Shown here one piece after another: positions 37,818 through 52,061 of a stretch of 64,000 nucleotides of DNA (position 1 is its first letter; each line of letters begins with the position of its first letter). The stretch covers positions 1,005,501 to 1,069,500 of the forward strand of contig NZ_CP102263.1 in assembly GCF_025147485.1 (NCBI RefSeq), in the 5' to 3' direction. The notes under the pieces are model-generated. The model was not told the DNA's origin. It searched no databases and was given only the letters and a program-made list of their open reading frames with translations. The position numbers and the translations under genes were made by a program. The stretch comes from Bacteroides uniformis. Lineage in GTDB: Bacteria > Bacteroidota > Bacteroidia > Bacteroidales > Bacteroidaceae.

Positions 37818-38261
37818 ATGATGAAAGAAGAAACTTTCAATTATTCCAAAGTTCCCCATAACTTCGGCTTATGCGCTACTGACACATGCCCTTATACTGA
37901 CACCTGCCTGCGCCGGATTGCATATACGTATGCACCCTCAAACAACATCTTCCTATATGTACTGAATCCGAAAGCAATAGAGTCCACAGCGGGAAAATGC
38001 AAATATTATTGCTCGAATAAGAAAGTGCGCTATGCCAAAGGCTTTATCCATACGGCAGAAGCCATCTCTGTCGGCCAGTCCGGCACGTTCCGCTACCGGC
38101 TCATCGGCTTATGGGGTATCCGAAGATATTATCAGAAGCGGAAAGGGGAAACTTTGCTCTCACCAACCGAGCAGCAACAAGTCATTGCAATTGCCCGTAA
38201 CTTAGGACTCCAACGGACGGAGTACTTCGACGCTTATGTAGAAGAGTACGACTTCACATGA
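37818..38261 (+). CDS. DUF6078-like cysteine-rich cytoplasmic protein
   Basis: A 147-residue protein without a signal peptide. The N-terminal half has a cysteine cluster (LCATDTCPYTDTCLRR, then CKYYC) that could bind metal. The C-terminal half is helical and basic (IRRYYQKRKGE). It resembles the Bacteroides family DUF6078, which has no known function. The gene is monocistronic: IS sequence and the first palindrome array lie downstream. The array begins 9 bp after the stop codon. Confidence 0.6.
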   Translation: MMKEETFNYSKVPHNFGLCATDTCPYTDTCLRRIAYTYAPSNNIFLYVLNPKAIESTAGKCKYYCSNKKVRYAKGFIHTAEAISVGQSGTFRYRLIGLWGIRRYYQKRKGETLLSPTEQQQVIAIARNLGLQRTEYFDAYVEEYDFT

Positions 38262-38269
38262 CAGCTCCG

Positions 38270-38419
38270 GTCACCTCACATGATAACTCCGGTTACCCCA
38301 AACGGTAACTTCATTTACACTACGAGGTAAAAGGCTTTACACTATGGTGTAACGACCGTTACAATATGGAGTAACGGCCGTTACACCCTATGGTAAACTG
38401 CTTTACATTAGAAGGTAAA
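38270..38419. repeat. Array of seven 18-bp palindromic units with exact 22-bp period
   Basis: Units start at 38270, 38292, 38314, 38336, 38358, 38380 and 38402. Each is KTTAC-N8-GTAAM (G or T first, A or C last); the first copy is degenerate (GTCAC-N8-ATAAC). The 8-bp centres and the 4-bp spacers vary while the half-sites and the 22-bp phase are kept. It starts 9 bp after the DUF6078 stop and ends about 125 bp before the IS3-type element; I see nothing else in that interval. It is not a CRISPR: there are no unique 30-bp spacers and no cas genes. Confidence 0.85.
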
Positions 38420-38673
38420 CAAGCGGTAAATACAATACGCTGTCTTTTCCTGATTTAGCTAGACGCTTTTTCTTTTTATAACCGATATCAGTAGACGGTT
38501 CTTGGAATGTTGTACTGGTTCAGTAGTCACTTCTTCCCAAGCCCTGCTGATATAGTAGACACAGCAAAGTGAGTTGTCCTGATTCTGTTGACAGTCATCC
38601 TGCTGCATTTGCAGAGCCCGTGCTTGCTTGTCCGGCAAGACTGGGTGCCCCTAAAAGAGGCATTCTGTCTTTG

Positions 38674-39621
38674 TCAGGTGCGCTGTCCTGCGCCTTCGCC
38701 CGGACTTGCTGTCCGGCTTTGCAAAGATATTGCATCCTTCTTTTTATTGCTACTTGTGGAAGGATATTTTTTCTTCTTCCACATTTTCTTCTGTATTCCC
38801 TTCTCCAGATGCGCCACAGCAGGTATTTTATACCCGATACTCATATGCGGTCTGCGATGGTTATAGAAATGTATGTAGCGAGCTATGACATTTCTTGCAT
38901 GCCCGATTTCGTTGAACCGGCCTCGAGGATGGCTGCTTTCCGCCTTAATAATCCCGTTGATACGTTCCGCAACGGCATTGTCGGTGGGTTTGTAGTCTTC
39001 CGTCATACTGATGGCAATGCCATGTTTCTGAAGAAGTGCCACGTATGGGTCGCAACAGTATTGTACGCCACGGTCCGAGTGATGTATCAGGCCCGTAAGA
39101 TTTTCATCTCCTGTCATTTCAACAGCCTGCTCTATAGCCTGTTGCAATGCATTGATGGTTGCCGATACCCGTAAGGTGTCGGCAAGCACCCATCCCACTA
39201 TCTTATGGGAGTAGGCATCCGTAATCAGATGCAGATAACAGACTTCACCATTGGCAAGTGGTATATAAGTAATGTCGCTGACCCACAACTGGTTGGCTGA
39301 AGTCAAGGTCAGTCCTTTGATTAGGTTCTTCCACTTGTGGTAGCGATGGTTGGAGTTCGTCGTATGCCGGGTCTTGCGGGCAGGAAGCATCAAGCGGTGT
39401 TGCCGGAGCAATGCATAAAAGCTGTCCCGCCCAGGCATGAACCCGGCTCCAAAAAGCACGGTGAGCATAATCCACAGTTTGTAACAGCCTATACCCGGAT
39501 CTTCGATACGGATATCACGGACAGCATCCAGCATGAGACGTTCCCTATGTATCTGACTCTCAATGTCAGCCTTTGACTGGTAGTAGGCTTGACGACAATG
39601 GCCAAACAGACGGCAGGCCAA
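38674..39621 (-). CDS. IS3-family transposase OrfB (catalytic DDE part)
   Basis: A 315-residue integrase-core transposase. An HTH_21-type region (CRLFGHCRQAYYQSK) is followed by the rve domain with DDE residues: Asp in LWVSDITYIPL, Asp in LIHHSDRGVQYC, Glu in DNAVAERINGIIKAE. The C-terminal tail beyond PAVAHLEKG is Lys/Ser-rich and longer than usual. The stated start is a TTG. In the cell it is probably made as an OrfAB fusion by -1 frameshifting at A7 (39681-39675); the -1 frame is open from there into this gene. Confidence 0.9.
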   Translation of the reverse strand: MACRLFGHCRQAYYQSKADIESQIHRERLMLDAVRDIRIEDPGIGCYKLWIMLTVLFGAGFMPGRDSFYALLRQHRLMLPARKTRHTTNSNHRYHKWKNLIKGLTLTSANQLWVSDITYIPLANGEVCYLHLITDAYSHKIVGWVLADTLRVSATINALQQAIEQAVEMTGDENLTGLIHHSDRGVQYCCDPYVALLQKHGIAISMTEDYKPTDNAVAERINGIIKAESSHPRGRFNEIGHARNVIARYIHFYNHRRPHMSIGYKIPAVAHLEKGIQKKMWKKKKYPSTSSNKKKDAISLQSRTASPGEGAGQRT

Positions 39622-39656
39622 CGCAACTTTCAGGTTGCGCTGACTGACCAGTTCCG

Positions 39657-40037
39657 TTACGATTTGGCCCCAGATTTTTTTCTGATAGGGATGTTGAAGA
39701 GTTCTTCAGCACGCGTAATCATCAACTCACGGGCTTCTGTTTCCAGCTTGGAGAAAGACAGAGCTTTCTCCAGCTCTTTAATGCGCTTTTTTAATTGGGT
39801 ATTTTCATCTTTGTAGGCTTCCTTGCTGCGATTGGACATATCTGGTGATTCTTGTTCAGAAGGCAAAGATAGCTCTTCTGCTAAATTTGAATACTTTTTA
39901 ATCCAACTATTTAGCAAGGCAGGGCAACAAATGCCATGTGCCCGGCAAAAGGCATGCTTACTCATACCTGATTGGTAGTAAGAGTGAAGAAAAAACAGTT
40001 TTTCATCTTCACGATAAAGCTTTCGTTTTGAAGTCAT
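39657..40037 (-). CDS. IS3-family OrfA (helix-turn-helix protein)
   Basis: A 126-residue DNA-binding protein with an N-terminal HTH (FFLHSYYQSGMSKHAFCRAHG) and a leucine-zipper-like coiled coil (about 75-100, KDENTQLKKRIKELEKAL). It recognises the terminal repeats and regulates transposition. The last codons contain the slippery A AAA AAA heptamer (39681-39675). Slipping back one base continues the frame without a stop into OrfB. Confidence 0.9.
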   Translation of the reverse strand: MTSKRKLYREDEKLFFLHSYYQSGMSKHAFCRAHGICCPALLNSWIKKYSNLAEELSLPSEQESPDMSNRSKEAYKDENTQLKKRIKELEKALSFSKLETEARELMITRAEELFNIPIRKKSGAKS

Positions 40038-40124
40038 AATAGTAACACATTTATTAGTTTGTAAATGTGTCTACCTATATCAGGATAAGACACGCTGATT
40101 TAAAGGGAAGTATTCAGTATAAGA

Positions 40125-48962: not shown

Positions 48963-50228
48963 ATGAGAGTACTACTTATCAATACATCCGAACGCATCGG
49001 CGGCGCAGCCATCGCCGCCAGCCGTCTGATGGAATCACTCAAGAACCACGGCATCAAAGCCAAGCTGCTGGTGCGCGACAAGCAGACCGACCAAATCTCC
49101 GTTGTGTCACTGGACCATAACTGGCGCATGGTGTGGAAGTTCGTCTGGGAGCGCATTGTCATCTGGAGCGCCAACCGCTTCAACAAGAAGAACATCTTTG
49201 CCGTAGACATTGCCAACACGGGGACAGACATCACCTCACTGCCCGAATTCCAGCAAGCAGACGTCATCCATCTGCACTGGATAAACCAAGGGATGCTCTC
49301 GCTGAAGAACATCGAGAAGATTCTCGCCTCGGGCAAGCCCGTCGTCTGGACCATGCACGACATGTGGCCCTGCACTGGCATCTGTCACCATGCCCGCGAG
49401 TGCACCCACTACCAGCAGGAATGCCACAACTGCCCCTTCATCCACGGAGGCAGAGGCAAACGTGACCTTTCCTACCGCATCTTCCACAAAAAGCAGGCAT
49501 TGTATCGCAACCGTCACATCAACTTCGTCACCTGCAGCCGCTGGCTGGAAGAACGTGCCCGGACAAGCGCCCTCTTCTGCGGACATGCCGTGACGTGCAT
49601 CCCCAACCCCATCAACACCAACCTCTTCAAGCCCCGCAACCGACAGGAAGCCCGCAGCCGTTGCCTACTGCCGCAAGACAAAAAGCTCATGTTGTTCGGC
49701 TCGGTGAAGATTACGGACAAACGGAAAGGCATTGACTACTTGATAGAATCGTGCCGACTGCTGGCCGACAAGCATCCCGAACTCCGGGAACAGTTGGGTG
49801 TCGTCGTCTTCGGCAACCAATCGCAACAACTGGAAAACCTGCTTCCATTCAAAGTCTACCCGCTGAACTTCGTCAGCAACGAACACCAACTGGTGAACAT
49901 CTACAATGCCGTGGACATCTTCGTGACCCCCTCGCTGGAAGAGAACCTGCCGAACACTATCATGGAAGCCATGGCATGCGGCATTCCCTGCGTCGGATTC
50001 AACGTGGGCGGCATCCCTGAGATGATAGACCATCTGCACAACGGCTACGTGGCACAATACAAATCCTCGGAAGACTTTGCCAACGGCATCTACTGGACGC
50101 TGACCGAACCCGACTACCCCAGCCTCTCGGAACAAGCCTGCCGGAAAGCCATCTCCCACTATTCGGAGAACGTCGTCGCCAAGAAATACATTGACCTTTA
50201 CAACAAAGTGACCGGAAGAAATGCATAA
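48963..50228 (+). CDS. GT4-family glycosyltransferase
   Basis: A 421-residue retaining glycosyltransferase with the GT-B fold. The N-terminal Rossmann half starts RVLLINTSERIGGAAIAASR and contains a cysteine/histidine cluster (CTGICHHARECTHYQQ) seen in one GT4 subgroup, possibly a zinc site. The C-terminal half has LMLFGSVKITDKRKGIDYL and the nucleotide-sugar-binding SLEENLPNTIMEAMACG. It acts on the cytoplasmic lipid-linked intermediate. A 40-bp gap separates it from the previous gene, and its end overlaps the next start by 8 bp. Confidence 0.9.
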   Translation: MRVLLINTSERIGGAAIAASRLMESLKNHGIKAKLLVRDKQTDQISVVSLDHNWRMVWKFVWERIVIWSANRFNKKNIFAVDIANTGTDITSLPEFQQADVIHLHWINQGMLSLKNIEKILASGKPVVWTMHDMWPCTGICHHARECTHYQQECHNCPFIHGGRGKRDLSYRIFHKKQALYRNRHINFVTCSRWLEERARTSALFCGHAVTCIPNPINTNLFKPRNRQEARSRCLLPQDKKLMLFGSVKITDKRKGIDYLIESCRLLADKHPELREQLGVVVFGNQSQQLENLLPFKVYPLNFVSNEHQLVNIYNAVDIFVTPSLEENLPNTIMEAMACGIPCVGFNVGGIPEMIDHLHNGYVAQYKSSEDFANGIYWTLTEPDYPSLSEQACRKAISHYSENVVAKKYIDLYNKVTGRNA

Positions 50229-50967
50229 CCACCCCACCCCGAAATTCAGCATCATCACCGTGACCTACAATGCCGAAGCGGTACTGGAGGACACGATTCA
50301 AAGCGTTATCTCGCAAACCTACCACCACGTAGAATACATCCTTGTGGACGGTGCGTCCAAAGACGGCACGCTCTCCATTATCGACCGTTACCGCGACCGC
50401 ATCACCCGCATCGTGAGCGAACCGGACAAGGGATTGTACGACGCCATGAACAAAGGCATCCGCCTTGCCACCGGCGATTACCTCTGCTTCCTCAATGCCG
50501 GCGACAGCTTCCACGAGGACGACACCTTGCAGCAGATGGTGCGTTCCATCTCCGGCAACGAACTACCCGACGTGCTGTACGGCGAAACGGAACTGGTGGA
50601 CAAGGAAGGTCACTTCATCCGCATGCGCCGCCTCGCCGCCCCGGAAGTGCTTACTTGGCGAAGCTTCAAGCAGGGCATGCTGGTCTGCCATCAGGCCTTC
50701 TTTGCCAAAGCTTCCCTTGTAGAACCCTACGACCTGCAATACCGCTTCTCCGCCGACTTCGACTGGTGCATCCGGGTGATGAAGAAGGCAAGGGCGTTAC
50801 ACAACACCCATCTCACCCTCATCGACTATCTGGAAGAGGGAATGACCACCCAGAACCGGCAAGCATCCCTGCGCGAACGCTTCCGCATCATGGCGCGGCA
50901 TTACGGGCTGATGAGTACCGTAGCCCATCATGCCTGGTTCGTATTACGGGCCGTGATAAAGAAATAG
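50221..50967 (+). CDS. GT2-family glycosyltransferase
   Basis: A 248-residue inverting glycosyltransferase of the WcaA type. FSIITVTYNAEAVLEDTIQSV and EYILVDGASKDGTLSII form the nucleotide-binding part, and YLCFLNAGDSFHEDD holds the DxD-like metal site. The gene is the last of the glycan cluster; its start overlaps the GT4 stop. A hairpin (50996-51023) and the second palindrome array follow. Confidence 0.9.
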   Translation: MHNHPTPKFSIITVTYNAEAVLEDTIQSVISQTYHHVEYILVDGASKDGTLSIIDRYRDRITRIVSEPDKGLYDAMNKGIRLATGDYLCFLNAGDSFHEDDTLQQMVRSISGNELPDVLYGETELVDKEGHFIRMRRLAAPEVLTWRSFKQGMLVCHQAFFAKASLVEPYDLQYRFSADFDWCIRVMKKARALHNTHLTLIDYLEEGMTTQNRQASLRERFRIMARHYGLMSTVAHHAWFVLRAVIKK

Positions 50968-51023: not shown

Positions 51024-51066
51024 TCCCCCCTATACCCAGCTCTCTACAGTATAGGAGTGAGTACCC

Positions 51067-51176
51067 AAAACATCCCCATGTTTTCACCTAAAACATCCGG
51101 ATGTAATGGGGCAAAACATCCCCATGTTTTGGGGTAAAACATCCGGGTGTTTTGGAGAAAGACATCCAGATGTTCT
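51067..51176. repeat. Array of five 18-bp palindromes with exact 23-bp period
   Basis: Units start at 51067, 51090, 51113, 51136 and 51159. Each is AAAACAT-N4-ATGTTTT with small changes; the centre alternates CCCC, CCGG, CCCC, CCGG, CCAG. The 5-bp spacers are unrelated. The layout matches the 22-bp array at 38270 but the sequence does not. It lies between the end of the glycan cluster and the convergent sirtuin gene. Confidence 0.85.
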
Positions 51177-51182
51177 GCATAT

Positions 51183-51249
51183 TAAGTCCTATACCGTGAG
51201 GGGCTAAGTCCTAAGACGTAGGAGATTAAGTCCTAAGGCAAAGGAGGCT
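51183..51249. repeat. Three 22-bp repeats with TAAGTCCTA core
   Basis: TAAGTCCTA begins at 51183, 51205 and 51227, so the period is 22 bp. Each unit also has a partial inverted AGGA or GGGG half (best in the middle copy, CCTA-N5-TAGG). It directly continues the 23-bp array with a new sequence family. The last copy overlaps the 3' end of the sirtuin gene. Confidence 0.7.
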
Positions 51250-51949
51250 GGGTAGCTGTAAGCAGCGCCTTCAACTCTTTTACCCCTTCCGAAGCTCCCT
51301 TTTGAATGACATGTATCGGACGCATGACGTGCGTGTCCACCGGCTTGGGGTCTATCAGATACACTTCGGCGGCACGGGGCACGTAGTTCAGCAGTCCCGC
51401 AGCGGGATAAACGTTCAGGCTGGTGCCGATGATGACGAAGATGTCCGCCTGCTCCACATACCGGATGGCAGTCTCAATCTCCGGCACCGACTCGCCAAAC
51501 CACACGATGAACGGGCGGAGCTGCGTACCGTCGCCCGCCTTGTCGCCCAACTTTACTTCATATTCCTCCGGCGCCAGTTCCTTGACGAAATGCGGATTAT
51601 AAGGGTCGCGGCTGGAACAAACCTTCGTCAGTTCCCCATGCAAGTGTATCACGTGCGTACTGCCGGCACGCTCGTGCAGATTATCTACGTTCTGGGTGAC
51701 GACCGTTACATTGAAATCCCTCTCCAGGTCGGCAACGCCCAGATGCCCGGCATTCGGCACCACATCGAGCAACTGCTTGCGACGTTCGTTATAGAAATTA
51801 ATGACCAGTTCCGGATTACGTGCATACCCCTCGGGAGTCGCCACCTGCTCCACCGGATATTTGTCCCATAATCCGCCCGCATCACGGAATGTGCTGATGC
51901 CGCTCTCGGCGCTCATACCAGCACCCGACAATATGACCAAGTTCTTCAT
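51233..51949 (-). CDS. cobB: NAD-dependent protein deacylase (sirtuin)
   Basis: A 238-residue class III sirtuin. It removes acyl groups from lysines using NAD+. Visible motifs are LSGAGMSAESGISTFRD (NAD binding), TQNVDNLHERAG with the HLHGE catalytic His, and the LRPFIVWFGESVP and IGTSLNVYPAAGL segments. Only one Cys is visible in the usual zinc-ribbon stretch (KVCSSRDPYN), so the zinc site appears degenerate or lost. The ATG at 51949 gives the standard N-terminus. Its stop codon lies inside the last repeat of the palindromic array. Confidence 0.93.
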   Translation of the reverse strand: MKNLVILSGAGMSAESGISTFRDAGGLWDKYPVEQVATPEGYARNPELVINFYNERRKQLLDVVPNAGHLGVADLERDFNVTVVTQNVDNLHERAGSTHVIHLHGELTKVCSSRDPYNPHFVKELAPEEYEVKLGDKAGDGTQLRPFIVWFGESVPEIETAIRYVEQADIFVIIGTSLNVYPAAGLLNYVPRAAEVYLIDPKPVDTHVMRPIHVIQKGASEGVKELKALLTATQPPLP

Positions 51950-52061
51950 TTTCCGCTCCTTTCCTTTATTAAAGTAAGACAAATATAAGAAGAATGTTCA
52001 AGTTGTGATATAAATAAGAAAAATTAAATACTTAAAAGCCTTATCATTCAAATAAAAGACG

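Follow-up and report, generated by a model that had tools for sequence, protein, structure and literature searches.

What are evenly spaced short repeats doing between two converging genes of Bacteroides uniformis? The window, by which we mean the whole stretch of 64,000 nucleotides analysed here, contains such an array at 51067–51249, between a GT2 glycosyltransferase gene (50221–50967, plus strand, ending 100 bp left of the array) and a Sir2-family (sirtuin) gene on the right side (51233–51982, minus strand). The core of the array, which we call family A (51067–51181), is composed of five AAAACATCCGGATGTTTT-like palindromic units with a spacing of 23 bp, starting at 51067, 51090, 51113, 51136 and 51159. 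The right flank (51183–51248) contains three 22-bp units opening with TAAGTCCTA (starts 51183, 51205 and 51227) and runs into the 3′ end of the sirtuin frame; its third unit covers the last sirtuin codons, and the stop codon is at 51233–51235. The left flank (51035–51066, TATACCCAGC...TATAGGAGTGAG) is in part the inverted complement of the right flank and pairs with it in the predicted fold.

All eight unit coordinates given by the sequence-only reading, which first pointed out this array, were correct when reread. TRF independently reported the array at period 23 (score 99) and period 46 (score 132), and with 53/70 positions matching it was the strongest 10–40 bp lag signal of the window; one dinucleotide shuffle per sampled stretch, the window among them, gave zero arrays. 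The unit formula of that reading, AAAACAT-N4-ATGTTTT, is exact in units 1 and 3 and inexact in the other units. The alternation of centres that it described is found in four of the five units (CCCC, CCGG, CCCC and CCGG, the last followed by GTG instead of ATG), and the fifth unit has CCAG. The three 22-bp units are present where it placed them; they belong to the flank and do not form an array of their own, and similar CTAAGTCC/GGACTTAG units stand beside other copies, including the array upstream of an HU gene in B. stercorirosoris (L412). From sequence comparison we consider it probable that the window array serves one paralogue of the HU-HIG protein family as phased operator sites. In this family each array-bearing paralogue would have its own palindrome, repress its own gene and leave dispersed chromatin or insulator marks.

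The array belongs to a general class. We scanned periods of 10–60 bp in 2.06 Mb from 11 genomes, comprising 864 kb of the source genome (G000) with the window, 400 kb of B. cellulosilyticus, six more genomes of the genus and three of the order; the array threshold was arbitrary, with controls scored at the same threshold, gene calls were made by a simple script, and related species and array copies are not independent samples. Forty of 43 non-coding tandem arrays had a period of 21–24 bp or double this value, while no arrays were detected in the three order-level genomes (180 kb) or in 40 kb of one genome of the genus (G014). Thirty-one of the 36 non-coding arrays of period 21–24 exceeded the 95% palindromy level of random tandem arrays and five fell below it, some 22-bp arrays being non-palindromic. 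At 80 sirtuin-gene loci of Bacteroidales we found 32 arrays, among them twelve of period 22, three of period 44, three of period 23 and two of period 21. A general class with swapped sequences and nearly constant spacing, as the sequence-only reading had supposed, thus recurs in the source genome and in related genomes, where the scan gave further phased arrays.

The array families differ in sequence and most are palindromic. The source genome contains at least seven arrays of family B (GTAA-N6-TTAC) and ten places of family C (TTTGGCAAA..TTTGCCA), and B. cellulosilyticus contains a GAAACT..AGTTTC family in 16 places (E below 1e-4). The second array of the window (38254–38440, 22 bp) belongs to the dispersed family B, and at its edge lies an IS3-like insertion sequence of 1,650 bp (38442–40091, minus strand) with imperfect terminal repeats, HTH_Tnp_1 and rve frames and a 5-bp duplication, ACGCT. 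This element was found in six copies (the window copy, L331, L332, L334 and L335 among those listed): three lie inside a family B array, one at an array edge with the ACGCT duplication, one about 40 bp off, and one (L333, with an internal gap) near none.

The core of family A was found at five places in the 4.63-Mb single-contig source genome, the window array being one of them. The relatives of the sirtuin place this Bacteroides close to B. fluxus, B. clarus, B. cellulosilyticus and B. stercorirosoris. Each copy there has five core units, and related GGACTTAG/CTAAGTCC flank units were seen by eye at most. Family A was present in five of 61 genomes (the source genome and 60 relatives), all five of the same genus. 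Across 18 family A arrays the unit interval was 23 bp in 61 of 61 cases, and the unit number was five in the source genome, four or five in G022, and four in the examined arrays of G014 and G017. The copies were 71–86% identical within the source genome and 69–89% between species. Among 85 units from the five genomes, taken with a relaxed pattern, the centre was CCGG in 43, CCCC or GGGG in 36 and another in six; GGCC was absent, as though CC were required at the end of one half-site or both.

A regulon with single operators was considered too. We found ACATSSSSATGT in 15 places of the source genome, 13 within arrays and two with a different kind of centre, and all 13 sites of the family A core types sit in arrays, so that such a regulon is unsupported; chance also predicts few isolated sites. 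No match to family A was found in plasmid records. Among phage records one unannotated faecal contig of 5.4 kb carried five family A places and is probably a bacterial fragment, and a search of phage-record proteins with the family A HU protein gave two weak matches, both on unannotated faecal contigs.

The link to a protein came from the genes of the HU-HIG family (PF18291, HU domain fused to wHTH, Ig, or glycine-rich motif, with TIGR01201 alongside). This family has 28 matches in the source genome and 29 in B. cellulosilyticus. One of the family A places of the source genome lies directly upstream of an HU-HIG gene (L370) about 975 kb from the window array; this upstream region matches the window array at 85.6% over 90 bp, and the encoded protein (G000:C1:2032262) is short, with 141 aa. 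Using a lag test (at least 27/44 at lags 20–25 within 300 bp), the signal was detected upstream of 14 of the 28 HU-HIG genes of the source genome, against 1/28 downstream and 24/580 called genes (P = 2e-11), and without the family A gene it was still detected upstream of 13 of 27 (P = 2e-10). In B. cellulosilyticus the corresponding count was 11 of 26 readable upstreams against 21/212 genes (P = 9e-5), the upstreams of L395, L401 and L403 being runs of N and dropped from the count. Two upstreams, L357 of the source genome and L399 of B. cellulosilyticus, show a period of 20 and resemble low-complexity sequence; the tests hold without both. With the array scan (42/66 level), seven of 28 HU-HIG loci had an array within 1.5 kb, compared with 4.5% of random windows (P = 2e-4), and all seven arrays were on the 5′ side of the HU-HIG gene. 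Among six HU-HIG-like genes in sequence that was gathered for reasons other than arrays, two had an array (G022 L224 and G021 L221).

By the lag test, an upstream array is missing from half of the HU-HIG genes. As seen by eye, the palindromes differ among most paralogues, e.g. CGTTCCACCATGGTGGAACG, CTTTCCACAGCTGTGGAAAG, AATCATACCGTATGATT and GTTCACTNNAGTGAAC. Four of 54 HU upstreams matched one of 56 dispersed arrays of the same genome at E ≤ 1e-8 (L370 and L354 in the source genome, L386 and L388 in B. cellulosilyticus), against 2/734 control upstreams, both of which overlap their matched arrays by coordinates. Families B and C, both large, showed no convincing match to any HU-HIG upstream region in the source genome, and no HU-HIG partner was found for them there. 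A TAnnTTTG-type promoter box was located at or just before the array in 14 of 25 HU upstream arrays and in 95 of 724 control stretches.

HU-HIG genes without arrays often show a lone palindrome downstream of the promoter box, which resembles GTTGATCAAC or is ATCGTTGAGGCCTCACGAT and is perhaps another operator type (upstream regions of L360, L364, L374, L375, L393 and L402). The HU locus of G018 (L018, 600–1900) contains more arrays beside family A, with 22-bp GGGTACGGATGT-like units and 60-bp and 27-bp repeats. As for the proteins, a profile of eight HU-HIG sequences with the family A protein at its head matches solved HU structures, while the single family A sequence gave no match to them. 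Matches to a winged helix at the C-terminus, below the cutoff, were seen in two of six paralogues scanned, and these two are mutual orthologues.

The palindrome varies together with the protein. In G000, G022 and G018 the HU-HIG gene with a family A array upstream lies at the MscS locus, and in G014 at a different locus. We searched 30 genomes, 26 of them of the genus, with the family A HU protein, and the five genus genomes with the closest homologue (54–100% identity) are exactly the five that contain family A, which is absent from the 21 others (5/5 against 0/21); the next closest homologue, in G032, is little below at 47%. Such a coincidence of ranks has a probability of 1.5e-5 if random, a value to be read with three of the five genomes sharing the locus by descent. 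The homologue in B. stercorirosoris (85%) has the family A array upstream too.

Among 16 matches the upstream palindromes change in a graded way with protein distance. Arrays of ACATCCGGATGT type stand upstream of six homologues at 54–100% identity, one in G014 lying at another locus; the homologues at 47% have ACACCCGGGTGT in G032 and GACACCCGGGTGTC in the second G014 copy; three of the four homologues at 40–41% have TACACCCGGGTGTA-type arrays (two copies in G003, and G026), the fourth (second G032 copy, 41%, L424) having a single palindrome and no array; and in another group at 39–40%, AGATG..CATCT palindromes were found in four. A dispersed array of G026 (L214) carries the same TACACCCGGGTGTA palindrome. 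When the HU proteins of the source genome and of B. cellulosilyticus were paired by best match, the upstream arrays of seven pairs were moderately more alike (P = 0.006), clearly so in two, and the highest-scoring array pairs overall were not from best-match HU pairs.

The sequence-only reading placed these elements at gene ends, and here the result was divided. Arrays are enriched in convergent gaps (14/83, compared with 23/507 for the other gaps, i.e. 17/378 tandem and 6/129 divergent; Fisher P = 2e-4, or, when the two window arrays are left out, 12/81 and P = 0.001). They also occur in tandem and divergent gaps and directly upstream of HU-HIG genes, and of the 17 in tandem gaps only 10 are closer to the 3′ end. 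Nor does an array necessarily stay in place across species. Some species carry no array in the orthologous sirtuin/GT2 gap, and in several others the array there has a different sequence: of 13 sirtuin loci inspected by eye, six have arrays (L066–L069, L074 and L078), of which the scanner flags L066, L068, L069 and L078 at the sirtuin site, L067 and L074 being seen by eye only. At the MscS and Dus loci arrays were gained, lost or belonged to another family in different species (the G014 and G004 arrays at the Dus locus are under the flag level and were seen by eye only). The idea that array position is conserved across species is weakened, because arrays are frequent in convergent gaps anyway and turn over at these two other loci.

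Such turnover could also be produced by a non-autonomous mobile element, MITE- or REP-like, of which the array would be the cargo or the end. Copying would account for a genome with several dispersed copies, similar in their flank-core-flank layout and equal in unit number, and for related species that can be without an array at the orthologous site, and a precedent exists in BrickBuilt of Porphyromonas gingivalis, a 23-nt minisatellite within a MITE according to the parts of its description used here (PMC4596501). We nevertheless consider a mobile element unlikely. Reading by eye, in one sequence, revealed no terminal repeats with target duplications around the window array; the family A copies are no more alike within the source genome than between species; the array at the MscS/HU locus is common to three species; and half-sites are better conserved than spacers (see below). 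Copying would moreover leave the HU-HIG link unexplained, though both could coexist.

A second possibility is that the arrays are sites of another dimeric regulator or of a segregation protein, e.g. ParB-like, with the HU link being secondary. No HU partner was found for families B and C, which leaves room for such a protein. Taken together, families A, B and C occupy 22 places, which are closer to the skew-defined origin (about 1.25 Mb) than expected, at a mean distance of 0.72 Mb versus 1.16 (KS P = 0.008); the GAAACT family of B. cellulosilyticus showed no evident bias of this kind, with six of 16 places on the skew-origin contig that makes up about one third of the genome. In G014, family A arrays also stand in divergent gaps, between DNA methylase and GH31-like genes (L023) and between surE and parA-like genes (L041), so one of them adjoins a parA-like gene. 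Against this, the palindrome tracks the HU-HIG paralogue across species, and many palindromes in one genome do not fit a single ParB; we regard this explanation as improbable.

The units themselves tell what is preserved. From the 78 arrays collected, those with palindromy of at least 0.65 were used, 53 for a test of compensatory changes and, with at least four units also required, 50 for a test of half-sites; family A copies make up many of them, so that they are not independent. Half-site columns were on average 0.30 more alike between units than the other columns, and the half-sites were the better conserved in 49 of 50 arrays, where uniform divergence would give 0.03 and 60%. Complementary double changes in the palindromes were not in excess, with 51 in the 53 arrays versus 45.9 ± 5.2 in shuffles; wobble-type double changes were slightly up (11 versus 5.9 ± 2.1), and single changes to G-T (93) and C-A (98) were about equal. 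The complementarity of a unit was 0.754 with itself, 0.772 with the mirror unit and 0.777 with the others. Conserved half-sites, free spacers and the lack of a compensatory excess point to sites of a dimeric protein rather than to hairpins or slippage. The homogenisation of tandem palindromes by duplication, which the sequence-only reading had put forward, does not agree with half-sites that outlast spacers or with the invariant intervals of family A, and a cognate protein family is the better explanation of the arrays than a general repeat-making process.

Selection for RNA or single-stranded DNA hairpins, acting as terminators, 3′-end protectors or cruciforms, is for these reasons very unlikely in our opinion. 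Every unit is foldable, the convergent gaps are enriched, and the whole region of 283 nt folds far better than its shuffles (z = −6.1 and −5.9 for the two strands); palindrome arrays fold well anyway. Despite this strong fold, hairpin selection was rejected both within units, by the double and single changes, and between mirror units, whose complementarity is no higher than that of the others, and hairpins need no fixed period of 22–23 bp. The array region contains one weak terminator-like site and no promoter-like site; it has no strong stem-loop with a T-run, compensatory changes are not in excess in the arrays, and in an Rfam search of the window only a tRNA reached the gathering score. Intrinsic terminators were about equally frequent at gene ends with arrays (13/42) and at others (118/412), which leaves arrays as a replacement of terminators unsupported. 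The most improbable explanation is that the arrays are neutral minisatellites, produced by slippage of replication or by template switching. The tandem direct repeats and a unit number that varies between families and species speak for it; against it are one dominant period in the non-coding arrays, family A intervals of 23 bp without exception, a family A unit number nearly constant within species, and half-sites that persist while spacers diverge.

We therefore return to the operator reading of the window array. The usual view of HU proteins is that they package DNA non-specifically, ordinary HU being regarded as largely sequence-independent. The HU-HIG paralogues with arrays are most likely sequence-specific, self-regulating histone-like proteins, for which the dispersed arrays would be the other sites; this much, with binding, autorepression and the geometry of the oligomer, we infer from the comparisons above. 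Each array-bearing paralogue would recognise its own short palindrome. A distance of 22–23 bp is approximately two helical turns of underwound cellular DNA, and dimers may occupy several sites at this spacing on one face of the DNA, forming a compact nucleoprotein block. At an array located at or just after the promoter of the HU-HIG gene itself, such a block would repress the gene (autoregulation), the TAnnTTTG-type box standing at or immediately ahead of 14 of the 25 upstream arrays. Arrays with the same palindrome would be dispersed among other genes, as between the GT2 and sirtuin genes of the window, and there the block would most likely serve as a local chromatin or insulator mark separating convergent neighbours; this role is proposed because of the excess of arrays in convergent gaps, that is, from position.

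More tentatively, we might speculate about an addressable chromatin, a picture that is possible but somewhat doubtful. About a dozen HU-HIG paralogues per genome would each have a private palindromic code, one promoter array for regulation of their own gene and between a handful and about 20 dispersed phased arrays; the codes would diverge with the paralogues, loci would swap codes between species, and the chromosome would be partitioned by a changing set of proteins. If this is true, Bacteroidales would place sequence-specific histone-like marks at chosen intergenic sites, with codes evolving fast enough to be followed by comparison of species, and a function would be given to a large paralogous protein family and to a widespread class of repeats. 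The exact pairs of DNA and protein are named here for testing.

Regarding known systems, open-access literature searches gave no description of the array class or of its pairing with HU-HIG genes. REP and BIME elements of enterobacteria and pseudomonads consist of single imperfect palindromes arranged as alternating pairs and linked to RAYT transposases. They resemble the window array as intergenic palindromes with many dispersed copies that insertion sequences target; they differ in having no phased runs of 22–23 bp and no tie to HU-HIG genes. The MatP/matS, ParB/parS and SlmA systems likewise have dispersed palindromic sites for a chromosome-organising protein, but with one protein and one site type per genome, and with single sites instead of phased arrays. 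The putative binding proteins belong to the HU/IHF and HU-HIG family (PF18291; TIGR01201), for which searches of the open-access literature gave no description of paralogue-specific operator arrays.

The closest likeness is with BrickBuilt (Klein et al. 2015, PMC4596501), which the examined parts of that paper describe as a minisatellite/MITE of P. gingivalis with 19 dispersed copies, leader and tail flanks and imperfect units. Like BrickBuilt, the window array consists of 23-nt tandem direct repeats that are intergenic, dispersed and flanked, in a member of the Bacteroidales. BrickBuilt is one sequence family, in P. gingivalis and P. gulae, with 1 to 22.8 units and IS5-like terminal repeats, and the same parts mention dyad symmetry of the repeats and report neither a protein partner nor a phasing of palindromes (PMC4596501). 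Here, by contrast, there are many families across Bacteroidales, a nearly fixed family A unit number per species and a link to HU-HIG, a comparison made by description. Ends of the BrickBuilt type (GAGACCTTTGCA type, IS5-like) with a target duplication were not seen by eye at the window array, which is a weak argument because only four of the 19 BrickBuilt copies have both ends, as far as those parts of the paper go. According to its table, BrickBuilt_14 adjoins a gene whose product is given as a DNA-binding protein of PF00216 (HU-type) (PMC4596501), so that the HU link might extend to Porphyromonas.
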